NCBI GenBank assembly: GCA_013152415.1
Contig: JAADGI010000017.1
Location: 62,001-126,000, forward strand
Direction: 5' to 3'
DNA length: 64,000 nucleotides
Source: Gammaproteobacteria bacterium
GTDB lineage: Bacteria > Pseudomonadota > Gammaproteobacteria > HyVt-429
The notes beneath the pieces are model-generated. The model worked only from the letters and a program-made list of their open reading frames with translations, did no database searches and was not told the origin of the DNA. The translations under genes and the position numbers were made by a program. Every line of letters starts with the position of its first letter. Position 1 is the stretch's first letter. Positions 17,999-53,419 of the stretch are shown here, piece by piece.

Positions 17999-20236
17999 TT
18001 ACTTGGTCGTATGGGTATAAACCCCATCCCACTGGGTCCCCGGCGGCTGGACATGGAAGTGGCTAATGCGATCGCAATAAACCTTATAGATCAAACGTTG
18101 CGGATAAGCCTTCTGTAAATTCAAGAACTGCAGCTCGGCCTGATCCCACCGTTGAGCCCGATAGTGTTCCAAGCCATTACGATACAAAATCAACTCATCC
18201 AGCACCTCCTGACTAAGCTCAGACTGCTTGCCGATGGGCTCATAGATCACCACTGGCTTGTCCTTGCCCTTCACCCTCACCCGATCCAGTTCCCGGTAAA
18301 CAAAATCCGCTACCGCATTGCGGGTGTATTCACTGACGATGATGGTGACACCATATTGTTTTGTCAGGCCTTCCAGCCTGGAGCCCAGATTCACGGCGTC
18401 ACCGAGCACGGTATAGGCCATGCGAAAGGCCGAGCCCATATTACCCACATTCATCTCCCCGGTATTAAGGCCAATGCCCACTTTTATGGGCGGCCACCCT
18501 CGCTCAGCAAATTGCTCTTGTATCTCCTGTAAACGGGCATCCATGGCCATGGCGGCCTCAAGGGCAAATCTGGCATGATCCGGGTTGTTCAGAGGTGCCC
18601 CCCAAAAGGCCATGATGGCATCCCCCATATACTTGTCGATGGTGCCACGATACTGGTGAATAACTTCCGTCATCGGGGTCAAAAAGGCATTCATCAAGTC
18701 GGATAGTTCCTCTGGGTTTAACCCCTCGGAGATCGTGGTAAAACCACGCACGTCAGAGAACAACACGGTCATCTCCCGTCGCTCGCCTTGCAACGAATAG
18801 CGTTGTGGATCTTTACTCATCTCCTCCACCAGTTCCGGTGGCACGTATTGCCCGAACAGACCACCGAGCTGACGCTTGCTGCGTGACTCCACAAAGTAAC
18901 CGTAAGATGTATTGTGCATAAACAAGACCATGATCAGCAGCAGTGGTGATGCCAGGGGCAATACAAAATTGGAATACTGCCATACCATCAGATTGAGTAT
19001 GACCGTAACGGCAAAGACCGTGAACGCAAACAGGGTGCTCCAGACAGAGTTAAGCAAGGGTAATATCAACGCCAACATCAACCCTATCACCACCAGAATA
19101 ACGAGTTCGGCTCCCAGGGTATAGGCAGGCCGATGTTGAAAACGATCGTCAAGAATAGCCGATACCAGGTTGGCATGAATCTCCACTCCGGGATAGATCT
19201 TTTGCACCGGGGTATTGCGCAAGTCGAGCAGGCCCGGAGCGGTGGTGCCGATCAGGGCAATGGTCCCTTTCAGCTTCACATCACCAGGCACAGTCTGGTT
19301 TAACACTTGCGTCGCCGAAACATAAGGGAAACTACCCTGACGCCCACGGTAAGGCACCAAAGTAGCCGCATCGGCATCCACCGGAATCTTGTGCTGACCC
19401 AGACCAATCCACTCCATACCATTATAATTTTTCCCAATCCCAAAACCTTTAGCGAATATTGCGCGCACCGGTTGACGTAAATAGAGTCGCGCTACCGCCA
19501 AAGAAAGGGATTCATATACCGCACCTTGATATTCCTGGAGCATGGGCACACGCCGAAAGACACCGTCAATGCTGGTCGTGGGATTATCAAAAAAACCACC
19601 TGCTGCGGCGGCTTGTTGCAGAACAGGGATGTTTCCCCCATAGCTCGAAGCAGACTTAAAACTCAAACTATTTTTTGGAAAACTACCTGCGGGAAATACA
19701 GGTAACGGCAAGGCCCCCGAGCTCACGCTGCGACTGGAATCCTGATTGAAATAATAACCCAGCACCACCGGACGTCCCTGCAAACCTTCAGCAAATACCT
19801 TGTCGTGATCGAGGAGAGGCCGGATACGCTCCAGGGCCGGGGTCAAAGCTTGATAGGCCGGGTCCGCAATCAATCCTTCCAACTGTTTGAGGATAGGGTT
19901 TTCATCCTTTTCCGCGAACACAACGTCAAACCCCAACACACGAATCTGATAATGATCAAAAAGTACGTCAACCAACTTGCGTAGCTTGTCGCGATCCCAG
20001 GGCCATCGTCCCTCCGCCGCCAGGCTAGCCTCATCTATATCAATGATGACGATGCGCTTATCTACGGTTTCAGGCAGGGTAAGGTTCAGACGTGCGTCAT
20101 AGGTCAATGCCTCCAATTGACGAATCAAACTGACATCGACCCAACCCACAAGATGTGTGAGAAAAAACAGGATGATGGCCAGACTGATCCCAATACGGGT
20201 CAGCTGACGCCTCCACTGACTGATCCACGCCTGCAT
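17999..20236 (-). CDS. CHASE2-domain adenylate/guanylate cyclase
   Basis: The 745-residue membrane protein has an N-terminal helix, a large periplasmic CHASE2 sensor (about residues 40-330; IVIIDIDEASLAAEGRWPWDR is typical), three membrane helices (about 345-430) and a class III cyclase domain. Metal-binding aspartates lie in VLFSDVRGFT and KYMGDAIMAFWGAP. The lysine of DKYMGD and the aspartate of VLGDAVNLGSR fit adenine recognition, and N and R of VNLGSRLE are the transition-state residues, so it looks catalytically intact and should make cAMP. ATG at 20236 follows GGAG. It diverges from tpsB; a CRP regulator lies two genes away. Confidence 0.94.
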   Translation of the reverse strand: MQAWISQWRRQLTRIGISLAIILFFLTHLVGWVDVSLIRQLEALTYDARLNLTLPETVDKRIVIIDIDEASLAAEGRWPWDRDKLRKLVDVLFDHYQIRVLGFDVVFAEKDENPILKQLEGLIADPAYQALTPALERIRPLLDHDKVFAEGLQGRPVVLGYYFNQDSSRSVSSGALPLPVFPAGSFPKNSLSFKSASSYGGNIPVLQQAAAAGGFFDNPTTSIDGVFRRVPMLQEYQGAVYESLSLAVARLYLRQPVRAIFAKGFGIGKNYNGMEWIGLGQHKIPVDADAATLVPYRGRQGSFPYVSATQVLNQTVPGDVKLKGTIALIGTTAPGLLDLRNTPVQKIYPGVEIHANLVSAILDDRFQHRPAYTLGAELVILVVIGLMLALILPLLNSVWSTLFAFTVFAVTVILNLMVWQYSNFVLPLASPLLLIMVLFMHNTSYGYFVESRSKRQLGGLFGQYVPPELVEEMSKDPQRYSLQGERREMTVLFSDVRGFTTISEGLNPEELSDLMNAFLTPMTEVIHQYRGTIDKYMGDAIMAFWGAPLNNPDHARFALEAAMAMDARLQEIQEQFAERGWPPIKVGIGLNTGEMNVGNMGSAFRMAYTVLGDAVNLGSRLEGLTKQYGVTIIVSEYTRNAVADFVYRELDRVRVKGKDKPVVIYEPIGKQSELSQEVLDELILYRNGLEHYRAQRWDQAELQFLNLQKAYPQRLIYKVYCDRISHFHVQPPGTQWDGVYTHTTK

Positions 20237-20480
20237 TACACACTCCAACAGCCACACCGACCTTTATTGTGGGCAGCGAAGCCCCCTCGCTCTTGAGGCA
20301 AAAGCTGCCTGACTCTAGTGCTCAATCTCACCGAACCCCAGTTTTGCCCACCCTCTTTAGGTATTTGGCCCAAATTTTCTGATTTTTAGGGTTTTTTTCC
20401 TAGAATTTAATGTAATATTAGCATAAAACCTATTGATTATTCAGGCATAATAACCCTAGCTACGACCCAAGATTATATCC

Positions 20481-22939: not shown

Positions 22940-25900
22940 ATGAATTTAAAAACTAAGGACTACCTCGGCCACGCCGATGGGGTTGCTGGCATAAGCCGCA
23001 GCCTGCTGGCCATCGGCCTTATTGGTCTGTTTCAAGGCCCTGCCCTGGCCAACCCCAGCGGTGCAACGGTGGTGCATGGGGACGTCTCCTTGTCCCAACC
23101 CGACGCCCAGACCCTGAATATCACCAATTCCCCTGGTGCCATTATCAATTGGCAGGACTTTTCCAACAAACCTGGGGAGATCACCCGCTTTTTACAGCAA
23201 AATAAGGCCAGCGCCGTACTCAACCGTGTGGTTGGCCAGGACCCCTCGCAGATCCTGGGCAGTCTGCTATCCAACGGCAAGGTTTTTCTGATCAACCCCA
23301 ATGGTATTGTCTTCGGTGCCGGTGCCCGTGTGGACACCGCCGGCTTGATCGCTTCATCTCTAAATCTTTCCGATGCGGATTTTATTGCCGGTCAGTACAA
23401 CTTTGAGGGTGGGGCCAACGCCGGAGCCGTCATCAACCGCGGTTTTATCAAATCGAGCAAGGGAGGCGAGGTCTTACTCATCGCCCCCAATGTGGAAAAC
23501 AGCGGCATCATTCAGGCCGAGGATGGCACGATCTTGCTGGCCGCCGGGCAAAAACTGACTCTCACCAGCCTGGATGTAGACTACATCAGTTTTGATATCC
23601 AGGCCCCGGACAACAAGGCCCTCAATGTCGGTAGCCTGCTCGCCAATGGGGGTGCCGCCGCCATGCTGGCCGGCACAGTACAACAACGCGGTCGTATTGA
23701 GGCCACGCGACTTAGCCGTGATGCCGATGGCCGTATTCGTCTCATCGCTCAGGACACACTTGAGGTAAGTGGCACCGTCACCGCCAATGGAAACAATACT
23801 GCGGCCGGTGGCAATATTCAGATGACCGCCAACACGGTCACCTTGAACAACGCACGGGTCCTGGCCTCCGGGAAATCCGGTGGGACTGTACTGGTAGGGG
23901 GAGATTTTCAAGGTGGCGGTAAACTCACCAACGCACAAAACACCACTATTGATACTCAGTCTACTATTCATGCCAGCGCCACCGGGAACGGCGATGGTGG
24001 CAAAATTATTGTCTGGTCCGACGACACGACCACCGTCAACGGTACCCTCAAGGCCAGGGGCGGCCCCACCGGTGGTGACGGTGGCTTTATCGAGACCTCG
24101 GGTAAAAAGACCCTTGAATTCAGCCGCCCGGCAGACGTCAGCGCCCCGAAGGGAAAGGCCGGCACCTGGCTGTTGGACCCGGAGAATATCGACATCGACA
24201 GCGGCAAGGCCACCAGCATCGAAACCGCTCTCAACCAAGGCAGTAACGTGTCCATCAAAACCTCCGCCACCGGTAGCGGTGAGGGCAATATCACCGTCAG
24301 CGCCGGTATCGCCAAGACCGAGGGCGCGGATGCCAGGCTTGGCCTGGAGGCCCATGGGCGTATCGACGTTAACGCCCCTATCAGCTCGACCGCTGGGAAA
24401 TTGGATGTGGCCCTGCGTGCCGGGACCGGCATTGCCATCAACAGTTCAATCGCCACCAATGGCGGCAGTGTCAGCAGCTTGATTACAGGTGCCGCAGATA
24501 ACACGGCTGGCACGAGCAACACGACGGATGCTGGAACCGATCCAACGTCCACCGAAGTGACCAATATTGAGACGGCGAATACAAGCACCGACCCAATACC
24601 AGAATCCACAACCCACCCCGATGGCGGCACTCTTAGCACAAACGCTATTGTGGAAACCGTCGACACCGCCGGTACGGACTCATCAACGCCCGGTAATATC
24701 AGCACTGAGGTGGGTATCACCGATACGGCTACCCTCGCCGATAACAACACCACCATTGAAATCGAGACGGGTGCCACCACCGTGTCGAGTACTGACGTCA
24801 CCGACATCACGGTGACAACAGATACCGCCATAGACAGTGATATAGCAGCCTATACAGACATTGCTGTTGGCACCTCACCCTCCAACGACGCAACCGTTGT
24901 GGAAATCACCAATACGACCACCACAGTGGCAAACACCGATGCCACAGCTGAGGCTGTGACGGACGTGAGCATCCCATCGGAAATAGACGTTACCAACACC
25001 GAGACCATCGTTACGGTGGCCGATACTACAAACACAAGCAACCAATCTGAAATCAACGTCAACGGAGAAATTATTACCGACGGTGGCGGCATCACCCTCG
25101 ACAGTGGTGATACGGGGACCACGCTTGTTTACGGCACCCTGGATGCCTCCAACACGGACACGGGCGAAACCGGCGGAGACATTCGTGTCTTGGGTGATAA
25201 GGTCGGCATCACCGGTGAGGCCAAACTGGACGCCAGCGGCGATGCCGGTGGCGGTGAAATTCTCATTGGTGGCGACTTCCAGGGTAAAGGCGAGACCCGC
25301 ACCGCCGAGTTCACCTATGTGGGTAAAGACGTCAGCATTAAGGCCGACGCGGTCAGCGAAGGTGATGGGGGCAAGGTGATCCTGTGGTCCGACAACACCA
25401 CACGCTACTACGGCAATATTTCCACCCAGGGTGGCAGTCAATCCGGTGATGGGGGATTGGTGGAGGTGTCCGGCAAAAAGAACCTGATCTTCCTGGGACA
25501 GGTGGACACCACGGCGGCCAATGGGGCCATCGGCACCCTATTGCTCGACCCGGATGACATCAATGTCGGGGCAACGGGCACCAGCTTCACCACCGAAGAT
25601 AACGCACCCACAGATGGCACACTTTCTTTCACCGAGGCGGCAGGCGGTTTGAATATCCTCGCCAGCTCACTGGATGCGGTAAGTGCCAGTATCATCTTGC
25701 AGGCAAACAACGATATCAACTTTAATTCAGCGGTCACACTGACCACAACCGGTGCCAGCCTCACCGCACAGGCCGGCAACGACATCAACGTACTCGCCGA
25801 TATCACCACCAATGGGGGTGATATCACCTTAAATGCCAACGATCCTGCCGGTACCCAGAGCGGTACGGGGATCGTCAAGGTCAGTGCCAATTTGGACACC

Positions 25901-28273
25901 ACATCAGCTGGGGGGGCATCGGCCGGTGCCAATGTCACCTTATCCACCAGTGGCGGCACGGGCAAAGACGTCGACAGCGATTCACGCTTTGAGGGAATCT
26001 ACCTGAACGGCACTATCAAGGGCGGCACCGGTGGAACTGTCGATCTGGATACCGGCGGTGGCGCTGCCATCTCCAGTAGTGCCACTAATCCCAGGATTAT
26101 TGCCGACACCATCAAGCTGCAAACCGGAGCGGGTACCGGACCCATCGGCGATGTAGGTCAGTTTATTTACACCCAGTCTGCAGGGACCACGACCACAATA
26201 GACATCGGGGGTGCCTCCAACAAGGCCACGGGGGTATTTATCAATCACAGCGGCGGGCTGATCGTCAATACGCTGGAGATCGCCTCACCAGTACAACTCA
26301 AGGCCACCGGTAACCTGAGCTTCAACAACACCAACGTCACAACCATAGACACCGGTGGCAACGAACTGATCCTCGACAGTGGCGGAACACTGACCTTAGC
26401 TGGGGGGGCGTTGACGGGGAAACAGATAGAACTGAGATCTGCGAACTCTTTTGCTGTCACTCAGGATGTCACTGCCACCGGTAGCGGAGCGGGAGATAAC
26501 GTCACCCTTGAGGTCACCGGTGCCGGCAACCAACTCGATATCTCCATTGGCAAAACCGTCAGCAGCAACAAGGATGTCTCTCTCATCGCAGATAATATGT
26601 CGATCAGCGGCACTGTGAATGCCACTGATTTTGTCTACATCAAACCGACCACTACCAGTAGCGACATCGAACTGGTGAGCTCCGTCGGTAATGGACTCGA
26701 CATCATGGTCTCTGATTTGGCGAATGTCACTGCGGGTGATACCTTGATCATCGGTGACAAAAACTACACCGGTACCACCCGGGTCCTCTCAGCACTCAGT
26801 TCCAGCGGCATCAATGCCTCCACCCTGAAGCTGGCTAATCAAAATATCAGCATCGGTGCAGCAATCGATTTTTCGACCGGTAATGAGAATCTCAGATTCT
26901 TGACCGGCAGCGGCACAACCAGCGTCGGTGCCGATATCAACACCGGGTCGGGCGTCATCAATGGCGATGATTTTAGCTTCGGCAATGCCGGCACATTCAG
27001 CATCACCGGCAGCTTTAACGCCACCGGTGCCGTCAGCTTCAGCAATGTGTCCGGAACAGCCAACTTTGCCAGCAACTACACCGCCTTCTCCACCTCCTTT
27101 AGCAACGGTACCGCAAATTTTAATGGTACCAGCAACTCGACCAGCACCCTGAATTTAAATGGCGGCACTCTGGGGGGCTCCGGCAACTTTTCCAGCGGTA
27201 CGACTACCTGGACCGCCGGTATCATGACCGGTGCCGGTACTACGACATTCAATGGGCCCACCACAATCAACCCACCCACGCTTTCGGTGATCATCGTGGA
27301 TGGCCGTACCGTAGAAAATAACGGCACCATGACCTGGACGACCGGCGGAAATATCCGCCTGGATAATGGTGCTATCTTCAGAAACAATAACGGTGGAACA
27401 TTTGATATCCAGAATAATGGTCAAATCTTCACTTCTACGGGTGCCGCCCCCCTGGTCGATAACCTTGGGATATTCAAAAAGACAGGCGCAGGAGGGACCA
27501 CCCAGATAGCGGTTTCGATGCAAAACAGCGGACTCATCTCTGCGGAGAACGGCACATTACAGCTAACGGGGGCCACCTTTCTCAACCAGGCCAGTGGTGT
27601 AATACAGGGCACAGCCATCTTTGATGGCTCAGGCACAACGCTCACCAACAACGGTGCCTTCAGTCCCGGCACCTCGGCCGGCACGCTGACCTTGATAGGT
27701 GGCCTACCGGGCACCGGTACGCTCAATATCGAGCTGGGTGGAACCGGTGCCGGGCAATTTGATGTGCTTAATGTCCCATCAGGATCGGCCGCCATTAATG
27801 GCACGCTGAATATTGCCTTGATTAACGGATTCACACCGAACGTGGGCGATACCTTCGATATCGTCACCGCCGCCAGTCTCGGAGGACTGGGGGCAAACAT
27901 AAACGGACCAGACGGCTATACCTTTGTCCTGGTTGATGCCGGAGGTGGTATCGCCCGCTTGCAGGTCACGGGTATACCGGCGGTGACAGATGGGGTGGCC
28001 ACACCAACCGACCCCGTTATCGCCAACCCCATTACTACCGCGGCCATCGACCCGACACCGGTCATTGATGCCTTTACCGATTCACTGGTGGTATTACTCG
28101 ATACCACCAACCTCGAAGACCCTAACCTGGGTACACTGCTGGGCAACGATGACAACACCAGCGATGACGAAGAAGGCATTACGAAGGCACAAAAAAACCA
28201 AGACGAAACCGACGCCTCAAACACTGACAGCAAACCATCGCCGAAGAAGGTGCTGTCCTGTAGCGTGGGATAA
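22940..28273 (+). CDS. TpsA exoprotein, filamentous-haemagglutinin-type adhesin
   Basis: The 1777-residue product is a secreted two-partner-secretion substrate for the adjacent TpsB. An extended signal peptide ends near ALA (residue 37). The TPS domain follows, with NPSGATVVHGDVSLSQ, ITNSPGAIINWQDFS and the hallmark LINPNGIVFG. The rest is a Gly/Thr/Asn-rich beta-helix. A Thr/Asp-rich low-complexity stretch (about residues 517-713) is flanked by two copies of a roughly 100-residue module (VGGDFQGGG and IGGDFQGKG starts, LLDPENI and LLDPDDI ends). The only cysteine is five residues before the stop (VLSCSVG), suggesting a C-terminal anchor or crosslink. Start ATG at 22940. Confidence 0.93.
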   Translation: MNLKTKDYLGHADGVAGISRSLLAIGLIGLFQGPALANPSGATVVHGDVSLSQPDAQTLNITNSPGAIINWQDFSNKPGEITRFLQQNKASAVLNRVVGQDPSQILGSLLSNGKVFLINPNGIVFGAGARVDTAGLIASSLNLSDADFIAGQYNFEGGANAGAVINRGFIKSSKGGEVLLIAPNVENSGIIQAEDGTILLAAGQKLTLTSLDVDYISFDIQAPDNKALNVGSLLANGGAAAMLAGTVQQRGRIEATRLSRDADGRIRLIAQDTLEVSGTVTANGNNTAAGGNIQMTANTVTLNNARVLASGKSGGTVLVGGDFQGGGKLTNAQNTTIDTQSTIHASATGNGDGGKIIVWSDDTTTVNGTLKARGGPTGGDGGFIETSGKKTLEFSRPADVSAPKGKAGTWLLDPENIDIDSGKATSIETALNQGSNVSIKTSATGSGEGNITVSAGIAKTEGADARLGLEAHGRIDVNAPISSTAGKLDVALRAGTGIAINSSIATNGGSVSSLITGAADNTAGTSNTTDAGTDPTSTEVTNIETANTSTDPIPESTTHPDGGTLSTNAIVETVDTAGTDSSTPGNISTEVGITDTATLADNNTTIEIETGATTVSSTDVTDITVTTDTAIDSDIAAYTDIAVGTSPSNDATVVEITNTTTTVANTDATAEAVTDVSIPSEIDVTNTETIVTVADTTNTSNQSEINVNGEIITDGGGITLDSGDTGTTLVYGTLDASNTDTGETGGDIRVLGDKVGITGEAKLDASGDAGGGEILIGGDFQGKGETRTAEFTYVGKDVSIKADAVSEGDGGKVILWSDNTTRYYGNISTQGGSQSGDGGLVEVSGKKNLIFLGQVDTTAANGAIGTLLLDPDDINVGATGTSFTTEDNAPTDGTLSFTEAAGGLNILASSLDAVSASIILQANNDINFNSAVTLTTTGASLTAQAGNDINVLADITTNGGDITLNANDPAGTQSGTGIVKVSANLDTTSAGGASAGANVTLSTSGGTGKDVDSDSRFEGIYLNGTIKGGTGGTVDLDTGGGAAISSSATNPRIIADTIKLQTGAGTGPIGDVGQFIYTQSAGTTTTIDIGGASNKATGVFINHSGGLIVNTLEIASPVQLKATGNLSFNNTNVTTIDTGGNELILDSGGTLTLAGGALTGKQIELRSANSFAVTQDVTATGSGAGDNVTLEVTGAGNQLDISIGKTVSSNKDVSLIADNMSISGTVNATDFVYIKPTTTSSDIELVSSVGNGLDIMVSDLANVTAGDTLIIGDKNYTGTTRVLSALSSSGINASTLKLANQNISIGAAIDFSTGNENLRFLTGSGTTSVGADINTGSGVINGDDFSFGNAGTFSITGSFNATGAVSFSNVSGTANFASNYTAFSTSFSNGTANFNGTSNSTSTLNLNGGTLGGSGNFSSGTTTWTAGIMTGAGTTTFNGPTTINPPTLSVIIVDGRTVENNGTMTWTTGGNIRLDNGAIFRNNNGGTFDIQNNGQIFTSTGAAPLVDNLGIFKKTGAGGTTQIAVSMQNSGLISAENGTLQLTGATFLNQASGVIQGTAIFDGSGTTLTNNGAFSPGTSAGTLTLIGGLPGTGTLNIELGGTGAGQFDVLNVPSGSAAINGTLNIALINGFTPNVGDTFDIVTAASLGGLGANINGPDGYTFVLVDAGGGIARLQVTGIPAVTDGVATPTDPVIANPITTAAIDPTPVIDAFTDSLVVLLDTTNLEDPNLGTLLGNDDNTSDDEEGITKAQKNQDETDASNTDSKPSPKKVLSCSVG
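23885..24200 (+). repeat. TpsA internal module, copy 1
   Basis: Encodes roughly residues 316-420 of the exoprotein: VGGDFQGGG, then GDGGKIIVWSDDTT, GDGGFIETSGKKTLEF and WLLDPENIDI. The protein pattern recurs at 25250-25570. Confidence 0.75.
25250..25570 (+). repeat. TpsA internal module, copy 2
   Basis: Encodes roughly residues 771-877: IGGDFQGKG, GDGGKVILWSDNTT, GDGGLVEVSGKKNLIF and LLLDPDDINV, matching copy 1 in order and spacing. The two copies bracket the Thr/Asp-rich segment. Confidence 0.75.
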
Positions 28274-28284
28274 AATACACGAAT

Positions 28285-29667
28285 ATGCCTGATGCCCCTT
28301 ATAAAGTATCCCCTATCACACTGCTAACCGTGGTCGCAGTGCTCGTATTTGGATTACACCCCCCTACCGCTTACGCGGAGGCTGCAATAGGCAAACTGCT
28401 TTACAGCAAAGGTGTGGTATCCGGCCAAATGGAGGGCCGCTCCATCCGTATTCTGGGCCGCGACTCTGATATTTACCTGAAAGACACCCTCACCACCGGC
28501 AAAAGAAGCTTTGCCGTAATGGAATTCTCTGACGGCACCAAACTCACTGTGCGACCGGGTAGCATCCTTAAGGTCGAGGACTACGCCCACGGCGACAAAC
28601 GCGAGACCGCGGTTTTTAGCCTGATCAAAGGTGGACTGCGTGCCATCACCGGCTTGATTGGTAAACTCAACCCGGGGGGATATAGCGTACAGACTCCCGT
28701 TGCCACCTTGGGCATCAGAGGAACAGAATTTGACGCCCGAATCTGTGCCCAAGACTGTGCCACCGAAGAAAAGGCGGCCAAGCCAATCGAGGTGGTCACA
28801 CAATCCAAGGTCATCGCCCGTGTCGCCTTGCGCAAGGGTGGGCTCAAGGGCCGAGACATCACCGGCAAAATCCGCGATATTGCTACCGGTGGCCCGGTTT
28901 ACAAGGGTGATACCTTAATCACCGCCAAAGATGCCTTTGCGGTGATTGCGTTTCGGGATGACACCCGCATCACCCTTCAACCGGACACTGAGTTTGTGGC
29001 CCAAGACTACCGCTACCAGGTTGATCAACCTGGTGCCAGCAACGTGCTATTTAATCTCATTAAAGGTGGACTACGCGCCGTTACCGGGGCCATCGGCAAA
29101 CTCAACCCCAGCGGATTCAAGGTCCGTTCCCCTACCGCCACTATCGGCATACGCGGTACCGGATTTGATTTTTATCACAGCAACCCCACCCACGCCTGGG
29201 TATGGTTAGGAGAAATCACCTTTGAGTCGGCTTCTGGCACCTTAGTCTTAACCGAAGGTCAGACCGTGTTTCTACCCAGGCTCAACGCTAAACCCATAAT
29301 CCTCAACAAACTACCGGTTTTTATCCAAAAACAACCCGGGCCCAGGCCCGATAAGATCAAAATTGATCTGGATAAGATGTTTGGGGCAACCCAACAACAG
29401 GAGATCAAACCCGGTCTATGGGTGTTTGTTCACGACGGACATGTGCGGGTCAATAGCAAGCAAAAGGGCAATAAGAATATTGACCTGGGAGCCGGTGAAG
29501 GTGCTTTTGCTGATGGCGATGATGTCGTGCGTGTGGAAATAATCCCGGCCTTCATGCTCCAGGATATATATCCACGACCCGGCCAGCTTGACCCCAGGAC
29601 TCTGAAATTACTCGGCACCCTCAAGGGTGAACTTAGCAATAAGAATGTCGAGTGTGAGGTAAAGTAG
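28285..29667 (+). CDS. Secreted protein with two tandem FecR domains
   Basis: The 460-residue protein has a signal peptide (TLLTVVAVLVFGLHPPTAYA) and two FecR-type repeats. Repeat 1 runs from GKLLYSKGVVSGQ through FAVMEFSDGTKLTVRPGS to FSLIKGGLRAITGLIGKLNP and VATLGIRGTEFD. Repeat 2 has FAVIAFRDDTRITLQPDTEF, NLIKGGLRAVTGAIGKLNP and TATIGIRGTGFD. No sigma/anti-sigma helix or membrane anchor is seen, so it is not a classical iron-sensing FecR; such periplasmic FecR-domain proteins often accompany TPS and CHASE2 genes. The gene starts 11 bases after the TpsA stop and is likely cotranscribed. A pair of cysteines (ICAQDC) sits after repeat 1. Confidence 0.88.
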   Translation: MPDAPYKVSPITLLTVVAVLVFGLHPPTAYAEAAIGKLLYSKGVVSGQMEGRSIRILGRDSDIYLKDTLTTGKRSFAVMEFSDGTKLTVRPGSILKVEDYAHGDKRETAVFSLIKGGLRAITGLIGKLNPGGYSVQTPVATLGIRGTEFDARICAQDCATEEKAAKPIEVVTQSKVIARVALRKGGLKGRDITGKIRDIATGGPVYKGDTLITAKDAFAVIAFRDDTRITLQPDTEFVAQDYRYQVDQPGASNVLFNLIKGGLRAVTGAIGKLNPSGFKVRSPTATIGIRGTGFDFYHSNPTHAWVWLGEITFESASGTLVLTEGQTVFLPRLNAKPIILNKLPVFIQKQPGPRPDKIKIDLDKMFGATQQQEIKPGLWVFVHDGHVRVNSKQKGNKNIDLGAGEGAFADGDDVVRVEIIPAFMLQDIYPRPGQLDPRTLKLLGTLKGELSNKNVECEVK

Positions 29668-29795
29668 ATCTTCTGCCTCGGTTAAGGGCAGATCAAACAC
29701 ATGCGGCTATCCTGTTAATGTTCCCTCTTTCTGCGAGGCTTTGGTGCCCTGCAAAGAGACAAAAAGCACTAGCGGCCACCACCAGGGACAACAAG

Positions 29796-30533
29796 ATGGA
29801 GACGCTGTTCATGCACCCAACAGATGATGATGTCTACCCCAGAAGGTCATCGACCTGGCACCGCATCCTGACAACCTTCATTCTGGTGCCAATTTATATT
29901 AGTAGTTTTCCTGCCTCAGCAGAATCAACTGTGGCCGGACACGTGTTGACCGGAAACGTACAAGCCACTGATAAGAGCCACTCACAGAACCGCGAAGTTG
30001 CCGGTGGCGAGGCATTTATGAGTGGCGAAACCCTCTCCACACAAGACAAATATGCAGTAATCGGCTTCAGTGACGGCACCAGGATAACCCTACGCCCCAA
30101 TACCGAATTCGTTATCACTGTCTACCACTATGGCCAGGGTCAAAGTGAAGCACTATTTAAGCTAAACACGGGCGGCATAAAAGTTTCCACGGGTAAAATT
30201 GCTGAAAATACGCCGTCAAAATTTCGCGTGAGTACACCCTATGGTAACCTCACGCTACCTGATCCCGATATTAAGGGATTGGTCTGTACCAAAGGTTGCG
30301 ACTACGATGCCGCTGAACCCAAAAATAATAACACTCACACCGGACATATTGCCTTTAGTAAAGGCCACGTCACCATCACCCGCAAGGATCACACCCCTGT
30401 TACAAGCAAAGCGGGCAACAAACTTGAAAAGGGCGACACCATAGTGGTTGGTCGTGATGGCCTTGCGGTACTGGTCCTTACCAATGGCCAACGCAAAACC
30501 CTTAAATCCGACGAAAGCTATACTATAAAGTAG
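29796..30533 (+). CDS. Secreted FecR-domain protein
   Basis: The 245-residue protein has an N-terminal hydrophobic signal (ILTTFILVPIYISSFPASA), one FecR-like repeat (YAVIGFSDGTRITLRPNTEF, LFKLNTGGIKVSTGKIAENTPSKFRVSTPYGNL broken over about 40 residues) and a final SH3-like segment ending KTLKSDESYTIK. The GIRGT ending of typical FecR repeats is replaced by LTLPDPDIKGLVC, and a CTKGC pair follows. Start ATG at 29796 has AGGGA seven bases upstream; ATG at 29811 is an alternative and the longer frame from 29718 lacks a ribosome site. It appears to be a diverged paralogue of the preceding gene, probably in one operon with tpsA. Confidence 0.8.
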   Translation: METLFMHPTDDDVYPRRSSTWHRILTTFILVPIYISSFPASAESTVAGHVLTGNVQATDKSHSQNREVAGGEAFMSGETLSTQDKYAVIGFSDGTRITLRPNTEFVITVYHYGQGQSEALFKLNTGGIKVSTGKIAENTPSKFRVSTPYGNLTLPDPDIKGLVCTKGCDYDAAEPKNNNTHTGHIAFSKGHVTITRKDHTPVTSKAGNKLEKGDTIVVGRDGLAVLVLTNGQRKTLKSDESYTIK

Positions 30534-30708: not shown

Positions 30709-31854
30709 ATGACGTCCAGCCACGACATAGCAGGAATAATTAAGCTTCACCACGCCATCATACTTGCGTTTAGTCTGTTTACCTGGAGCCACCCGGTATG
30801 GAGCCAGGATGACACGAAACAGGGGGCACAAATATACCAAAAGAACTGTGCCACCTGTCACAACACCGGTAATACCGGTGCACCCACTCTTAACGATACA
30901 GCCAATTGGGATAGCCGTCTTAATTGGCCCCTCTGGGTCACCAACCGACGTGCGATAAATGGCTACGGCACCATGCCCGCCCGCGGCGGCAACGATACCC
31001 TGTCAGATCAAGACGTTAAGGATGCGGTGGCTTATATGATTGCGCGCATAGAAGCAGGGCCACAAAAAGAAATTGAAAAACCAAAAAAAATACCTCGCCG
31101 TAACCAGAATAAGGCAAAACCAAATAACAACAAATACCACCAAACACCGAAAGACCAGGACATCCCCAAAGATAGTTACGGCAATGAAGTCCGCTTGGGC
31201 AAAAAGATATTTACTCAAACCTACAAGTACGCGCGTCGCTACGTTGGTAACGGTATGAGCTGTGCCCACTGCCATTTGGATGCGGGCCGTAAGGCCAATG
31301 CTGCTCCAATGTGGGCAGCCTATGGCATGTATCCCGCCTACCGACGTAAGAGCAATCGTACCAATACTCTGGAGGAACGCATCCAACAATGCTTTCGATT
31401 TAGTCTAAACGGTATCTCCCCGGCCCTGGATGCCCCGGAATTGCGCGCACTTACAAGCTATATGCACTTCCTTTCCAAAGGTGTGCCAGTAGGAGTAAGT
31501 ATGCCGGGACGAGGTTACCCACAAGTCAAAAAGACCGGATTCGACCCCAACCCTGCTCGCGGCAAAGAAGTCTATAAAGCCAAGTGTGTGTCCTGTCACG
31601 GTACAAAGGGGAGGGGCAAGGACAGACCTGGGGGGGGCTACATATACCCACCACTATGGGGCAATGATTCATATAACAAGGCTGCGGGCATGCACCAGAT
31701 CGAACTTCTGGCCAGTTTCATCAAGGCCAACATGCCCAAAAATAAGGAAGGGTCCCTGAGCAACCAAGAAGCCCTGGATGTGGCGGCATTTATCAATGCC
31801 CAGTTACGCCCTGGAGATCCCCGCAAGGGCCTTATCCAGAGTCTATTGGACTGA
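30709..31854 (+). CDS. tsdA: TsdA-like thiosulfate dehydrogenase with extra N-terminal cytochrome c domain
   Basis: The 381-residue periplasmic protein has a signal peptide and three heme sites: C47ATCH, C185AHCH and C293VSCH. Residues 150-380 match TsdA, which oxidises two thiosulfates to tetrathionate: AHCHLDAGR, PMWAAYGMYPAYR, the Cys in IQQCFRFSLNG (C228) that would be the unusual axial Cys ligand of the active-site heme, and the C-terminal heme domain with PPLWG and RPGDPR. The N-terminal 110 residues form a separate class I cytochrome c joined by a Lys/Asn-rich linker, perhaps a built-in electron acceptor. GGAGG precedes the ATG. The stop overlaps the SulP start by one base. Confidence 0.85.
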   Translation: MTSSHDIAGIIKLHHAIILAFSLFTWSHPVWSQDDTKQGAQIYQKNCATCHNTGNTGAPTLNDTANWDSRLNWPLWVTNRRAINGYGTMPARGGNDTLSDQDVKDAVAYMIARIEAGPQKEIEKPKKIPRRNQNKAKPNNNKYHQTPKDQDIPKDSYGNEVRLGKKIFTQTYKYARRYVGNGMSCAHCHLDAGRKANAAPMWAAYGMYPAYRRKSNRTNTLEERIQQCFRFSLNGISPALDAPELRALTSYMHFLSKGVPVGVSMPGRGYPQVKKTGFDPNPARGKEVYKAKCVSCHGTKGRGKDRPGGGYIYPPLWGNDSYNKAAGMHQIELLASFIKANMPKNKEGSLSNQEALDVAAFINAQLRPGDPRKGLIQSLLD

Positions 31855-34703
31855 TGAATCCTATGAAGCTCACGGTAATGCGTCGATTCTTTCCCTTTAT
31901 GCAGTGGCTACCCTCTCTTGGACGTGCCAACTTACGCCCGGACATGGAGGCAGGACTCGTCGGGGCAATTTTAATCCTGCCCCAGGCCATTGCCCTGGCC
32001 ACTCTCGCCGGCATGCCCCCGGAATATGGCATCTACACCAGCATCTTCCCGGTCATCGTTGCCATGTTTTGGGGATCATCATGGCATACCCTGTCTGGAC
32101 CCAATACAGCAGTCTGTGTATTGATTGCCTCATCGGTGGCCCCCTTCGCTGCTATCGGCAGCGAGCAATATATTGGTTTTGTGCTGGCACTGACGTTCAT
32201 GGCAGGCCTTGTGCAGCTGGCGGTGGGAAGCTTGCGACTGGGGGCCATACTCGATTTCGTATCTCACACCGTGATTTCCGCCATCGTCCTGGCGGTAGGC
32301 CTGATCATTATTGTATTTGCTGCCAATGCCCTGCTGGGGGTACTGAGCAACCTGGATGAACCCTTTTACATCAGGCTCTACCAGATCATCTATGATATAC
32401 CCCGGGCCAATGGCTATGCCCTGTTGGTGGGTGGGCTCACCATTATCGCCGGCCTGATATCGCGATATTACTGGCGACGTTACGCCCTGGTCATTGCTGT
32501 GGCTGTGGGTATGCTGGTGGCAGGGACCATCAATCTGCTGGTGGGGTCGGCCACCAGTGAATTGGAACTACTCGGTACCCTCAGCATCTCTGCACTGCCC
32601 TTTTCTGCACCCCACTTCGACTTAAATTCCATGGCGGTACTCAAGGCGCTGGTAACCAGCGCCCTGTCCATCGCCTTTCTGGGCCTGATGCAGACCATTG
32701 TGATCTCGCGTTCTATTGCCGCCAAATCGGGGCAACTTATCGAGACCAACCAAGAGATTATTGGCCAGGGCCTGTCCAACCTGGTGGCACCGTTTATCTC
32801 CAGCTTCGCAGGTTCTGGTTCCTTCAATCGCAGCGCAGCACACTACGATGCTGGCGCCAAGACGCCCATGGCCGCAGTTTATGCCTCATTCATTTTGTTA
32901 TTGGTGGTACTCGTCGCCGCCAAACTAATCGCTTATATTCCCTTGGCCGCTGTAGCCGGTGCCCTGATTCTAGTCGGTATCGGCCTTATTGATACAAAAG
33001 AAATCAAACAGGTACTGCGCTCACGCCAAGAGGCAGTCATTTTCTTTATGACCTTTATCAGCGCCCTGGTCCTGGGACTCAACGCGGGGGTCTTTGTTGG
33101 CGTGCTGTCATCACTGGTGATCTATCTTTGGTACGCCTCTACACCCAATATTGTACTCGAAGAACAGACCGCCCGGGATGGTCGACGAGTGAACATCGTT
33201 ACCATTGATGGTGGACTGTTTTTTGGATCGGTGCGTCATGTTGAACGTGTACTCGCCAACCTGGGCGAAAGAGATGGATACAACGGTAGCCTGATCATCC
33301 GAACAGACCATATGACCTATCTGGATGTACCGGGTGCCACCTTGATTGCCTCTGAGGCCAAACGCCGACGCGAGCACCAGGGACATCTCTATATTTTTGT
33401 TACTCGTGAAAAGATATTAAGTGCTCTGAGCCAATCCACATTTTTTAGTGAATTTGGTGAGGACCATATTATTCAACGCAACCAAGACCACCCCATGAAA
33501 GACGTGCTATACCCTTCGCGGATGAAGAAACCCACCAATGAAATACAAGCTACTGATTTGAAGAAAAAATCCAGCACCACATCACAAGCTCATTCTAAAG
33601 ACTTAAATGAAACCACGGCATTAATCTCAAGTCTGCAAAATACGAAACTCTTTTCCTTGCTCAGTACGCAACAGATCGAAGCCTTACTCAAAGAATCACC
33701 GACACAACAAGGCAACAAGGGGGCAATCATTACTGACCCCGAGGTCCCTATATCCGAACACTTTGTGCTATTAAAAGGTCGCGTTGATGTCGAACGCCTG
33801 TGGTCACTCCCCAAAGGTGGCGCTAAACGTTCTACCAGTGTCATGGACCCCGACCAAGAGGCTTCGGGTATCGCCGTTCTACAAGCATCGGGGCATGGTG
33901 TGCGTATCACCGCTAACAGCGCAATCACCTACCTTTTGATCGACTGTGAGAAATTTGACGAGCTTTTGGGCTGGAACCAACAGCTCGCCGATATGACGGA
34001 AACTGATCCGGAAACATCACGCCGCATGTCACTTATCAAACATACCGCTCTATTTCGCCAACTTCCGCTAGAAAATCTCAAGCAGGCACTACAGAGTATG
34101 ACCCCCCGAGACGTAAAGGGAGGAGAAACCATTATCCGCCAGGGTGAGACCGGTGACAGCTACTTTCTGATTGAGAGTGGAGAAGCCGGGGTGTGGAAAA
34201 AAGATACCTTTAGCGATGAAACAGTCTATGCCAACACCATCGCACCTGCGGCACGGCTAGGCCCGGGAGATGGTTTTGGTGAAGAGGCTTTGTTACAAAA
34301 TGGATTTCGAAGCGCCACTGTGATGATGGCCACACCGGGCCGGTTGCTGGTGATGGACAGACAACACTTTGACGCCTACATCCGACCTTCCTCTATCATA
34401 GAAATCGTCCCCAGTGAGGCCATCAGATTTATCGAGGGTAACAAGGTGCAATGGCTCGACTGCCGATACGATCTGGAATATTCCGAGGCCCACATCCCCA
34501 ATGCCCTGCATATGCCATTAGATCAATTAAGAGAACAACTTGTGGACCTTGATCGGACCAAACCCTGCATCGTTTATAGCCGCAATGAGCGCCGCAGCCG
34601 TGCCGCTGCATTCTTACTCACCGAACATAACTTTAAGGTCAAGGTATTAAAGGGCGGGATCATGCTTTGGCCTTACGACCTCGAAAATGAGAAAATCGAA
34701 TAA
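31854..34703 (+). CDS. SulP transporter fused to STAS, two cNMP-like domains and a rhodanese domain
   Basis: The 949-residue protein begins with a SulP anion transporter (about residues 15-410; GAILILPQAIALATLAGMPP, SGPNTAVCVLIAS, AGSGSFNRSAAH), followed by a STAS domain (about 425-540). A Lys/Thr/Ser-rich linker leads to a degenerate cNMP fold (about 580-690, SGIAVLQ in place of the cassette), a canonical cNMP domain (about 700-825; GFGEEALLQNGFRSATV) and a rhodanese domain (about 838-945). The rhodanese loop reads VYSRNERRS, with Ser909 where the persulfide Cys belongs. Substrate is probably sulfate. It is translationally coupled to the tsdA-like gene, and its last 350 residues resemble the next gene. 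Confidence 0.92.
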   Translation: MNPMKLTVMRRFFPFMQWLPSLGRANLRPDMEAGLVGAILILPQAIALATLAGMPPEYGIYTSIFPVIVAMFWGSSWHTLSGPNTAVCVLIASSVAPFAAIGSEQYIGFVLALTFMAGLVQLAVGSLRLGAILDFVSHTVISAIVLAVGLIIIVFAANALLGVLSNLDEPFYIRLYQIIYDIPRANGYALLVGGLTIIAGLISRYYWRRYALVIAVAVGMLVAGTINLLVGSATSELELLGTLSISALPFSAPHFDLNSMAVLKALVTSALSIAFLGLMQTIVISRSIAAKSGQLIETNQEIIGQGLSNLVAPFISSFAGSGSFNRSAAHYDAGAKTPMAAVYASFILLLVVLVAAKLIAYIPLAAVAGALILVGIGLIDTKEIKQVLRSRQEAVIFFMTFISALVLGLNAGVFVGVLSSLVIYLWYASTPNIVLEEQTARDGRRVNIVTIDGGLFFGSVRHVERVLANLGERDGYNGSLIIRTDHMTYLDVPGATLIASEAKRRREHQGHLYIFVTREKILSALSQSTFFSEFGEDHIIQRNQDHPMKDVLYPSRMKKPTNEIQATDLKKKSSTTSQAHSKDLNETTALISSLQNTKLFSLLSTQQIEALLKESPTQQGNKGAIITDPEVPISEHFVLLKGRVDVERLWSLPKGGAKRSTSVMDPDQEASGIAVLQASGHGVRITANSAITYLLIDCEKFDELLGWNQQLADMTETDPETSRRMSLIKHTALFRQLPLENLKQALQSMTPRDVKGGETIIRQGETGDSYFLIESGEAGVWKKDTFSDETVYANTIAPAARLGPGDGFGEEALLQNGFRSATVMMATPGRLLVMDRQHFDAYIRPSSIIEIVPSEAIRFIEGNKVQWLDCRYDLEYSEAHIPNALHMPLDQLREQLVDLDRTKPCIVYSRNERRSRAAAFLLTEHNFKVKVLKGGIMLWPYDLENEKIE

Positions 34704-34729: not shown

Positions 34730-34790
34730 GAAAACGAAAGTTAGCCGACATCCGCTGATAAAGGATGTCGGCTAACCAATGAACTCATTA
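34730..34790. repeat. Dispersed intergenic hairpin repeat, full copy B
   Basis: A 14-bp perfect stem (GTTAGCCGACATCC at 34740-34753 and its complement at 34763-34776) with a 9-base loop lies 36 bases after the SulP stop. Its left flank matches 15190-15210 exactly, and its loop, right arm and right flank (ATGAACTCAT) match 45774-45810. Confidence 0.8.
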
Positions 34791-34849: not shown

Positions 34850-35944
34850 ATGAAAAAATTATTCAACCGACTCAAAGCGGAGAAGTTGTTTTCCATGCTG
34901 ACTGAGAAACAGCTCAATACAGTGCTGGAACATAGCAAAATCTACAATGCCGAAGCCAAGGATATAGTCTTCCCTCCTGACAAAGCAATCACCCACTACC
35001 TCGTTATCATTGATGGAGAACTTGCTTGTGAACGCCAATATACCAACGCCGATGGCCAGCAAGAGATCCGCCGCAGGGTGCTGAAAGGCTGTGAGGCAGA
35101 AGGTGAGATCGCTGTACTCACCGCTGCGGGTCGCGGTTGTGCCGCAAGTGCCTTAACCCCTCTTCGTTACATGCTGATTGAAGGTGATCTAATCGATGTA
35201 TTTCTTGGCTGGAACCAGCAGGTGTCCCGTGCCATTGTCAATGACCCCAAACTCGCTCACCGCGCTGGACTCGTTAAACAAGTTAATGTCTTTCATCAAT
35301 TGCCTCTGGAGAACATTCAAGCAGCCTTCAAACGCATGTCAACAATCAAAGTGGATGCTGGAAATACTGTAGTAAAAGAGGGAGACAGCGGAGACTGCTA
35401 CTATGTGATCGAAACCGGCACTGCGGAGGTATGGAGAACCGACCCCTTCACCGACGAAACCAGTCTGGTTGCAGAATTCGGCCCCGGAGATGCCTTTGGG
35501 GAAGAGGCCTTGCTGCAAAACGCGATGCGTAACGCCACCGTCAAAATGACATCGCCAGGAAGTCTGCTGGTACTCCAAAAATCTGACTTTGATGAATTGG
35601 TACAGCCCAATTTTCTTGAAGAAATCGAGGCCGATGTGGCCCGGAATATGGTCGATCAGGGTAAGGCAAAGTGGCTGGATTGCCGCTACGAAATGGAATA
35701 TGAAGAATCTCGTATACCCAATGCCCCCCTTATCCCCCTGGACCGAATTCGAGAAAATACCCACAAACTGGATCCCGATTCCACCTACATCGTCTATTGC
35801 CGTAGCGGCCGACGAAGCAAGGCCGGGGCATTCTTGTTGCGCGAGCGAAATATCAAGGCCCTATCCATGATTGGCGGTATCAGCAATTGGCCTTTTGAAA
35901 TCGATGCCGAAGCCATAGACACCCCCAGCACCGAGACTCAGTAA
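34850..35944 (+). CDS. cNMP-cNMP-rhodanese protein
   Basis: The 364-residue soluble protein has the same layout as the C-terminus of the preceding SulP fusion. A degenerate cNMP fold (residues 1-125; EGEIAVLTAAGRG keeps Gly-Glu but not the Arg spacing) is followed by a canonical cNMP domain (about 135-255; DAFGEEALLQNAMRNATV) and a rhodanese domain (about 268-355) with an intact loop VYCRSGRRS and Cys317. It should bind a cyclic nucleotide and carry sulfane sulfur. It lies between sulfur genes, before soxYZ, and the cyclase at 18-20 kb could supply its ligand. The start has GGGAG upstream. It was probably the source, or the product, of a duplication linked to the SulP fusion. Confidence 0.9.
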   Translation: MKKLFNRLKAEKLFSMLTEKQLNTVLEHSKIYNAEAKDIVFPPDKAITHYLVIIDGELACERQYTNADGQQEIRRRVLKGCEAEGEIAVLTAAGRGCAASALTPLRYMLIEGDLIDVFLGWNQQVSRAIVNDPKLAHRAGLVKQVNVFHQLPLENIQAAFKRMSTIKVDAGNTVVKEGDSGDCYYVIETGTAEVWRTDPFTDETSLVAEFGPGDAFGEEALLQNAMRNATVKMTSPGSLLVLQKSDFDELVQPNFLEEIEADVARNMVDQGKAKWLDCRYEMEYEESRIPNAPLIPLDRIRENTHKLDPDSTYIVYCRSGRRSKAGAFLLRERNIKALSMIGGISNWPFEIDAEAIDTPSTETQ

Positions 35945-36105: not shown

Positions 36106-36191
36106 GGCCCAATCGTAGGTAGTAAGTGACTTTCACGAGCCCATCACCGCGGAATAGCCAATACCATCAGCAATCTCAAGGAGATGAATCA

Positions 36192-36662
36192 GTGAGCGAA
36201 ATAAAACGCAGAACCTTCCTCAAGGGCAGCATGGCCGGAGGGCTGCTCGCCGTAGCGGCCGGAGCCGGTCTACTGCGCCCTACTCAAGTTATGGCCGCCC
36301 AATGGCCCGACAGCGCCTTCAATGCCCGTAGTGTGGACGTAGCAATCAATAGCTTATACGGCAGTTCGAATATCATAGACAGTAAGGCCATTAAAATTCG
36401 TGCTCCGCTACAAGCTGAAAATGGCGCCAAGGTGCCTATTCAGGTCCTCACCGATATGCCCGTAGATTCAATCTCTGTCTTTATCAAGGAAAATGTCATG
36501 CCCTTGGCCGGTCGTGCCAACTTGAAAAATGCCAGTGGCTTTTTTAGCACCCGCATCAAGATGGCCAAGAGTTCTGACGTCATAGCCGTTGTCAAGTCGA
36601 ACGGCAAACTCCATTCGGCCAAACTCGCCATTAAAGTAACCGTGGGCGGCTGCGGCGGCTAA
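36192..36662 (+). CDS. soxY: Thiosulfate carrier protein SoxY (copy 1)
   Basis: The 156-residue periplasmic protein carries sulfur intermediates covalently on a Cys in its C-terminal swinging arm, here GGCGG at the very end (C154). A Tat signal is present (KRRTFLKG, then a long Ala/Gly/Leu stretch), as expected because SoxYZ is exported folded. The Ig-like SoxY domain follows. A GTG start at 36192 has AAGGAG eight bases upstream; the frame opens earlier at 36126 without support, and an ATG at 36184 stops after three codons. SoxZ follows 35 bases later. This pair is about 60% like the second pair at 51.5 kb by eye, so it is a paralogue, not a recent copy. Confidence 0.95.
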   Translation: MSEIKRRTFLKGSMAGGLLAVAAGAGLLRPTQVMAAQWPDSAFNARSVDVAINSLYGSSNIIDSKAIKIRAPLQAENGAKVPIQVLTDMPVDSISVFIKENVMPLAGRANLKNASGFFSTRIKMAKSSDVIAVVKSNGKLHSAKLAIKVTVGGCGG

Positions 36663-36697: not shown

Positions 36698-37015
36698 ATG
36701 GCAAGAAAGACAAAAATACGTACCCGTATGCAAGGCGGTAAGGTCGAAGTGTTGATTCTGGTTACCCACCCTATGGAGACTGGCCTGCGCTCTGACAAAA
36801 AAACCAAACAAAAAATACCGGCCCATTTTATCCAGACGGTGGATGTCGCCCTGAATGGAAAATCCATGGCCAGCGCAGAATTAGGTATCGGTATTTCTAC
36901 CAACCCACTACTAGGATTCCGTCTCAATTCAGCAAAAAATGGAGACAAGCTGCAAGTTAAATGGAAGGATAACCAAGGCGAGACGGGTGTTATCGACAGT
37001 AAGGTCGATCTCTAA
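36698..37015 (+). CDS. soxZ: Thiosulfate carrier subunit SoxZ (copy 1)
   Basis: The 105-residue protein has the SoxZ Ig-like fold: VLILVTHPMETGLRSDKKTK, IPAHFIQTVDVALNGK and LQVKWKDNQGE. It pairs with SoxY and is exported with it, having no signal of its own. The gene lies directly after soxY and is followed by a strong hairpin, so soxYZ copy 1 forms a two-gene transcript away from soxXA and soxB. Confidence 0.95.
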   Translation: MARKTKIRTRMQGGKVEVLILVTHPMETGLRSDKKTKQKIPAHFIQTVDVALNGKSMASAELGIGISTNPLLGFRLNSAKNGDKLQVKWKDNQGETGVIDSKVDL

Positions 37016-51502: not shown

Positions 51503-51970
51503 ATGAAACGTAGAACGTTTATGAAGGGCAGTCTCGCGGGAAGCGTACTGGCGGTCGCCGCCGGTAGCGGCCTGCTTAAGCCCACCGATGTCCTGGCAGC
51601 AGGATGGCCGAAGGGGGCGTTTGACGCTCAAACCGAAGCCGATATGCTGAGCAGCCTTTATGGTTCGAGCAGCGCGGCCGCTAGCGGAAAAATCCGTATC
51701 AAGGCCCCGATCCAGGCAGAAAATGGTCGCGTGGTACCGGTCAAGGTACAGGCCGACTTGGCTAATGTGGAGGCTATCGCCGTCGCCGTCGCCAAGAACC
51801 CACGCCCCCTCGCCACCAGCGTCAATCTGAGCGGTGGTGCAACCGGCTATTACAGCACCCGCATTAAAATGGGCAAGACCTCCAAGGTCACTGCCTATGT
51901 TAAAGCTGGCGGCAAGCTGCACACGGCTTCCAAGACGGTGAAAGTAACCGTTGGCGGCTGCGGCGGTTAA
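51503..51970 (+). CDS. soxY: SoxY (copy 2)
   Basis: The 155-residue carrier has a Tat signal (KRRTFMKGSLAGS), the SoxY domain and the C-terminal arm GGCGG (C153) that bears the sulfur intermediate. It lies between soxX and soxZ. It differs from copy 1 at 36.2 kb in many positions (for instance TEADMLSSLYGSSS against RSVDVAINSLYGSSN), so the two are distinct paralogues, possibly with different loads or partners. Confidence 0.96.
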   Translation: MKRRTFMKGSLAGSVLAVAAGSGLLKPTDVLAAGWPKGAFDAQTEADMLSSLYGSSSAAASGKIRIKAPIQAENGRVVPVKVQADLANVEAIAVAVAKNPRPLATSVNLSGGATGYYSTRIKMGKTSKVTAYVKAGGKLHTASKTVKVTVGGCGG

Positions 51971-52004
51971 ACCGGGCTTACGCTTAACATACGAGGACTA
52001 CGAA

Positions 52005-52316
52005 ATGGCTAGACTGACAAAGATCAAAACCAGGAAACGTGGTGATTCCACAGAAATCCTGGCACTGGTAAACCATCCTATGGAAACCGGTAGGCGCAAG
52101 AACAAGAAGACCAAGCAAAAGGTTCCGGCGCACTACATCCAGAAAATGTCCTTCGAACTCAATGGTAAGGTGGTTGCAGAAGCAAACTTGGGACCTGCGG
52201 TCTCCAAGAATCCTCTGACTGCCATCACCATTAAAGGCGCCAAAGCTGGCGACAAAGTGAAGGTGAGCTGGACCGATAACAAGGGTGAAAGCGGCGGTGC
52301 CACAGGGGCCGTATAA
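52005..52316 (+). CDS. soxZ: SoxZ (copy 2)
   Basis: The 103-residue protein has the SoxZ fold (LALVNHPMETGRRKNKKTK, VPAHYIQKMSFELNGK, VKVSWTDNKGE). ATG at 52005 follows GAGG; the upstream in-frame extension from 51951 overlaps soxY and is rejected. The order soxX-soxY-soxZ-soxA is the usual one. Confidence 0.95.
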   Translation: MARLTKIKTRKRGDSTEILALVNHPMETGRRKNKKTKQKVPAHYIQKMSFELNGKVVAEANLGPAVSKNPLTAITIKGAKAGDKVKVSWTDNKGESGGATGAV

Positions 52317-52387
52317 CTTTTCAAGCTTATTATGGGGATCGCCGGATGACTACGATCCGGCGACATTCCAGCCTTAGGAGGAAAATA

Positions 52388-53206: not shown

Positions 53207-53229
53207 CACCTACTGCAAATGGGTACGAG

Positions 53230-53258
53230 GCCCGGCCCCAGTGGCCGGGCTTTTTTTT
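53230..53258 (+). terminator. Strong intrinsic terminator of soxXYZA
   Basis: An 8-bp GCCCGGCC stem with a 5-base loop is followed by eight Ts. It lies 24 bases past the soxA stop. Confidence 0.95.
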
Positions 53259-53419
53259 ATCCCTAAAATACATAGAAATCCAACACAAACCACATATAGT
53301 TGGAATAGCCCCAGACCCTGTAGCGTCCTATATCGGGGTAACATACACAAAAGTGCGTTACACTGCCCCCGGCTAATTATTACAACAGACCGATTGATAT
53401 TGATGATGGAGTCAAGAAA

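Follow-up and report, generated by a model that had tools for sequence, protein, structure and literature searches.

A SulP-STAS transporter carrying tandem cNMP and rhodanese domains is inherited with a TsdA-type thiosulfate dehydrogenase in Gammaproteobacteria

SulP-STAS proteins with a cyclic-nucleotide-binding (cNMP) domain, non-catalytic rhodaneses, and the thiosulfate dehydrogenase TsdA are each already known. In the SulP transporter AtSULTR4;1, transport by the E347Q mutant nearly loses its dependence on the pH gradient, and the human SLC26 members except A11 are without this acidic residue (PMC8298490). A non-catalytic rhodanese acts as an interaction domain in USP8 (PMC12057046). Here we analyze a 64,000-nt stretch of a gammaproteobacterial genome (contig JAADGI010000017.1, positions 62,001 to 126,000; hereafter the window), which encodes a SulP-STAS-cNMP-cNMP-rhodanese fusion directly behind a TsdA homolog. 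Our best reading, to which we give about an even chance, is that this protein is an uncoupled exchanger or facilitator of sulfur oxyanions that partners TsdA under control of a protein kinase A (PKA)-like tandem cNMP unit, with sulfurtransfer moved, in its genus, to a free copy of the tail.

The fusion gene occupies positions 31854-34703 of the + strand, as do all of its domains, and forms a single intact open frame of 949 aa. Pfam places four domains above their curated cut-offs: Sulfate_transp, the SulP membrane domain, at residues 27-400 (31932-33053; 4e-71, 240 bits); STAS at residues 445-539 (33186-33470; 2.5e-6, 27.6 bits); cNMP_binding at residues 752-843 (1e-16, 61 bits), inside a second cNMP domain that spans approximately residues 726-845 (34029-34388); and Rhodanese at residues 853-939 (34410-34670; 2e-17, 64 bits). 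A first cNMP fold, at approximately residues 590-725 (33621-34028), falls under the Pfam threshold in the window protein and is supported by an AlphaFold2 (AF2) model searched with Foldseek. The tail added beyond SulP and STAS is 360 residues long. A first-pass annotation of the window had described one 949-residue frame with SulP, STAS, two cNMP folds, and a rhodanese, and the open frame, Pfam, and AF2/Foldseek bear this out. A contig scan with the full fusion protein as query yielded one locus only.

The same annotation had called for a domain-architecture search, and the fusion indeed recurs in 10 other genomes. Scanning 840 genomes recovered the full fusion 11 times, each time in a gammaproteobacterium (the window genome G000, and G002, G001, G186, G046, G360, G265, G383, G125, G039, and G241), with Pfam domain content confirmed in six of the 11. 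Among the relatives that have a name, the closest match was Acidiferrobacteraceae bacterium HyVt-429 (genome G002, locus L031; 87% identity), a member of the same genus.

Immediately upstream of the fusion lies a gene for a 381-aa triheme cytochrome (30709-31854, + strand) composed of an N-terminal monohaem domain and a TsdA-type thiosulfate dehydrogenase; its stop codon and the fusion start codon share one base (TGATG). Its last 240 residues match the solved TsdA structures 4v2k, 4wq7, and 5lo9 at 1e-49 to 1e-58 (PDB), and the haem-ligand Cys motif ERIQxCFxxSLNG is kept. By its haem domains, Cys ligand motif, and structure matches, the product is predicted to be a TsdA-type thiosulfate dehydrogenase. 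A TsdA homolog is the immediate upstream gene in 10/11 fusions, the exception being G125, and it is single copy in nine of the 10 genomes with the pair. Outside the window genus, the TsdA part is 59-69% identical. In three closely related genomes without the fusion, we found no TsdA either: G003 from the family of the window genome, G292 from the genus of G186 and G046, and G155 from the genus of G265. No TsdA lies within 1.5 kb of any other SulP locus checked. Because the two genes are adjacent in 10/11 cases, jointly absent in these three relatives, and TsdA is not near the other SulPs checked, they behave as an inherited unit. We note that HyVt-429 and G241 also have the N-terminal monohaem domain, which most of the other relatives did not show. 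The region shortly before the TsdA gene (22940-30533) codes for a filamentous-haemagglutinin-like protein of 1777 aa and, after it, two proteins with FecR domains.

The SulP part has lost the acidic coupling residue of transmembrane helix 8 that is typical of cation-coupled SulPs of the plant SULTR/BicA type. Gln280 of the fusion occupies the site of AtSULTR4;1 Glu347 and the BicA Asp. This site is Gln or, once, Leu in all 10 fusions aligned, and Glu or Asp in all 14 other SulP rows, which were taken from the same genome set. Gln44 and Arg326 (AtSULTR4;1 Gln112 and Arg393) are kept; Leu48 replaces the aromatic Tyr116, and Asn stands at the Ser392 position. Given the behavior of the AtSULTR4;1 E347Q mutant, the absence of an acidic side chain here speaks for an exchanger or facilitator that is uncoupled. 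An H+- or Na+-driven importer is correspondingly disfavored by Gln280.

The cytoplasmic tail is predicted to contain a tandem cNMP unit. In the AF2 tail model, built from an alignment of four sequences, most blocks of the first cNMP fold have a mean predicted local distance difference test (pLDDT) score of 70-90; the rhodanese part is poor (pLDDT <50 in places) and was left out of interpretation. Foldseek aligns the model with the tandem cyclic-nucleotide-binding (CNB) domains of the PKA regulatory subunit (PKA-R) and protein kinase G over 265-290 columns (E ~1e-16). At 0.24-0.41 (by query or target), the global template-modeling scores of the two-domain chains are low, as would be expected when the domains are oriented differently.

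In PKA, a Glu and an Arg of the phosphate cassette hold the phosphate of the nucleotide. The second cNMP domain of the fusion (CNBD2), whose best PDB sequence matches are PKA-R, carries the cassette FGEEALLQNGFRSATV at residues 808-823, with both Glu and Arg, and these are kept across fusions. In the alignment, the first cNMP fold reads ASGIAVLQASGHGVR and the cassette Glu and Arg are not found. The window genome encodes class III cyclases, including a CHASE2-class III adenylate/guanylate cyclase in the window (18002-20257, - strand) as a possible source of ligand. It is therefore plausible, on sequence grounds, that the fusion is a cyclic-nucleotide-regulated anion transporter. The first-pass annotation had suggested anion transport gated by a cyclic nucleotide together with a sulfur signal; the intact CNBD2 cassette and the cyclases speak for the former, and the latter finds no support in a rhodanese without its Cys.

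The active-site loop of the fused rhodanese reads VYSRNERRS, with Ser909 at the position of the catalytic, persulfide-forming Cys, as annotated in the first pass (codon 909 is AGC, 34578-34580, + strand; the downstream paralog has TGC). The window copy thus lacks the active-site Cys that marks a catalytic rhodanese. Ser occurs only in the window genome and in HyVt-429, where the loop is identical; all nine fusions outside the genus have Cys, as do all stand-alone cNMP-rhodanese relatives scored. Ser as a family trait was rejected since every fusion outside the genus has Cys, and a sequencing or assembly error was rejected since HyVt-429 shares AGC at codon 909. The proposed alignment of the loop thus gives a divided answer: homologs outside the genus have Cys, and within the genus Ser is kept under purifying selection and is no error.

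Between the window genome and HyVt-429, the ratio of nonsynonymous to synonymous substitution rates (dN/dS, Nei-Gojobori) is 0.097 for the fused rhodanese, 0.038 for the fused CNBD2, and 0.084 for SulP, with values of ~0.04-0.12 across all tail domains at a tail dS of ~0.85. These low values indicate that the Ser-bearing rhodanese is constrained by purifying selection and is not decaying. Without Cys, no persulfide can be held, so the sulfur sensing proposed for this domain in the first pass is unsupported, and the docking role offered alongside it, or allostery, is the better reading.

A stand-alone cNMP-cNMP-rhodanese paralog of 364 aa (34850-35944, + strand) begins 146 bases after the fusion gene. 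It is 39% identical to fusion residues 590-949, and its loop, VYCRSGRRS, has Cys. Among the fusions, such an adjoining paralog occurs only in the two members of the window genus. In the rhodanese, the paralog shares 64-72% identity with five sister fused tails, versus 41-45% for the window fused copy. It thus resembles the fused tails of other genomes more closely than it does the fused copy beside it, and it retains more of the ancestral state. The window SulP is 68-71% identical to these sister fusions, which are 69-84% identical among themselves. In trees, the stand-alone pair falls among the fused tails, consistent with a tandem duplication of the tail in the window genus. The ancestral fused rhodanese was probably catalytic. 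The first cNMP fold of the stand-alone copy (34850-35260) reads GEIAVLTAAGRGCAAS. Because it has Glu and Arg at cassette spacing, it may, unlike the fused one, still bind nucleotide.

The stem branch of the fused tail is long (1.06-1.12 vs ~0.6 for the stand-alone copy). Together with the loss of the rhodanese Cys and of the first cNMP cassette, this would fit a fused tail that has become a decaying relic since the duplication, leaving only SulP to matter in the window genus. The purifying selection described above and the loop shared by both species disfavor such decay, which we regard as very improbable.

Several other features were seen around these genes. Between the fusion and the paralog, positions 34740-34776 form a perfect 14-bp inverted repeat with a 9-base loop; the intergenic stretch containing it has a z of -4.3, and one imperfect copy lies elsewhere in the genome. 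This hairpin was dropped as a conserved regulatory element, as it is missing at the same place in HyVt-429. In HyVt-429, the gap between the paralog and soxYZ is ~5 kb long and holds two long frames (798 and 555 aa; L031:7709-12129) that match no Pfam family and are missing in the window. A further contig of the window genome (C33) carries two more stand-alone cNMP-rhodanese genes in tandem, both loops with Cys (L073:4810-7022).

The cNMP-rhodanese cassette itself is widespread, with matches in 167/369 gammaproteobacterial genomes at 1e-15. Several unrelated enzymes carry it: two very long proteins have an FGE-sulfatase domain at their end (1860 aa, L094:5733-11315; 1879 aa, L095:4281-9920), and a third, of 803 aa, is a pyridine-nucleotide-disulfide oxidoreductase (L096:199-2610). 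In many gammaproteobacterial genomes, the cassette again sits within open frames of 1300-1900 aa. Use of the cassette both alone and on other enzymes, and a fused tail larger than gating alone needs, would suit a transceptor in which transport is secondary and whose main task is to sense the flux of anions or a cyclic nucleotide and to signal this state to the stand-alone cNMP-rhodanese protein or other partners. We consider this rather unlikely: the SulP domain is intact, it retains Gln44 and Arg326, and its dN/dS points to strong constraint.

By gene content, the host is a gammaproteobacterial sulfur oxidizer. Past the paralog, the gene order is soxY (36126-36662, + strand; GGCGG end), soxZ (36698-37015, + strand), and a Bcp-type peroxiredoxin. 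The window also encodes SoxA, SoxB, a second SoxZ, TusA, DsrE2, and a YeeE-type sulfur transporter; the second sox set (soxZ, soxA, and soxB) lies at 51951-55165, ~15 kb from soxYZ (36126). Outside the window, the same genome has dsrA, dsrB, dsrE, dsrF, dsrC, and a DsrL-like gene; its pathway context as a whole comprises dsrABEFHC, SoxAB, SoxYZ, TusA, and DsrE2.

Since dsrAB and related genes of the window genome make sulfite in the cytoplasm, the fusion could instead export sulfate or sulfite for a reverse-Dsr pathway, with the tail throttling export and TsdA linked by thiosulfate co-regulation only. An uncoupled SulP site would fit efflux down a gradient. The fusion-less relatives are, however, also without TsdA, tying the transporter to TsdA and not to Dsr as such; we consider export possible and distinctly less probable than partnership with TsdA.

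For the TsdA-partnered transporter that we favor, the architecture, TsdA linkage, Cys/Ser distribution, coupling-residue loss, intact cassette, and purifying selection are read from the sequences. We hypothesize that the SulP part works at the inner membrane as an SLC26/SulP-type exchanger or facilitator without cation coupling, partnering the periplasmic TsdA encoded upstream. Its cargo would be a sulfur oxyanion (thiosulfate, tetrathionate, sulfite, or sulfate). The tail would form a tandem PKA-R-like unit, with a cassette-less first fold and a predicted binding-competent second, and this unit could set transport activity, via STAS, according to cyclic nucleotide. The terminal rhodanese, ancestrally equipped with Cys, could receive sulfane sulfur at the cytoplasmic mouth or monitor it there. 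For the window genus, the free copy that keeps Cys would probably perform the sulfurtransfer step, and the fused Ser909 copy may have a role in docking or allostery without catalysis. Ligand, substrate, direction, and gating, as well as the interaction and division of labor between the two tail copies, are thus the inferred parts of this scheme.

Several observations weigh against it. The most divergent fusion, that of G125, is without TsdA. The missing acidic residue, though it speaks against cation coupling, fixes neither substrate nor direction. CNB domains with an intact cassette do not invariably bind cyclic nucleotides. DsrE-like neighbors in two relatives were dropped as sulfur relay partners because both start with export-signal-like segments, so no cytoplasmic sulfur relay is placed beside the tail. 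Finally, tree resolution is low, and approximately unbiased (AU) tests (p 0.16-0.30) reject no placement of the stand-alone copies, leaving the tail duplication and the order of events as inferences. A more specific scheme, which we hold to be doubtful, would be a cyclic-nucleotide-gated module in which tetrathionate (or thiosulfate) from periplasmic TsdA is imported by SulP and handed via the tail to the rhodanese and TusA/Dsr; in one genus, this transfer would have been divided between a docking tail without Cys and a free sulfurtransferase.

In the literature library searched, we found no description of the SulP-cNMP-rhodanese fusion or of its pairing with TsdA, and no paper on the cNMP-rhodanese cassette. 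Cytoplasmic entry of thiosulfate and tetrathionate in sulfur oxidizers is poorly understood; PMC4175335 describes the transport systems as unidentified in its organism, and SoxT transporters are one recent answer (PMC11582611). A transporter coinherited with TsdA is a concrete candidate, and a gated TsdA-SulP module, if true, could provide such an entry route. The fusion and its paralog further constitute a natural experiment, presenting the tail with and without the catalytic Cys side by side.

Compared to described SulP/SLC26 proteins (AtSULTR4;1, BicA, SLC26Dg, and SLC26A11), the fusion shares full Sulfate_transp and STAS domains and the conserved Gln and Arg; it differs in its Gln at the acidic position, in the Leu and Asn substitutions, and in its extra tail. 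Among SulP-STAS-cNMP proteins, L023 (genome G003) also has cNMP after STAS, but its cNMP domain is single, it is without a rhodanese, and it keeps the acidic coupling residue. The PKA regulatory subunit resembles the tail in its two consecutive cNMP folds, both spanned by the tail model, and provides the best PDB matches of CNBD2; unlike it, the fusion has a first CNB without the phosphate cassette, is joined to a transporter, and regulates no kinase. By Pfam, the terminal domain has the Rhodanese fold of single-domain rhodaneses (GlpE/PspE type), from which it departs by the Cys-to-Ser change confined to the window genus; non-catalytic rhodaneses such as that of USP8 are known as interaction domains. 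Finally, the upstream gene is like TsdA/TsdBA in its matches to the solved structures and its conserved Cys ligand motif, and unlike them in its N-terminal monohaem fusion and in directly preceding a SulP gene.

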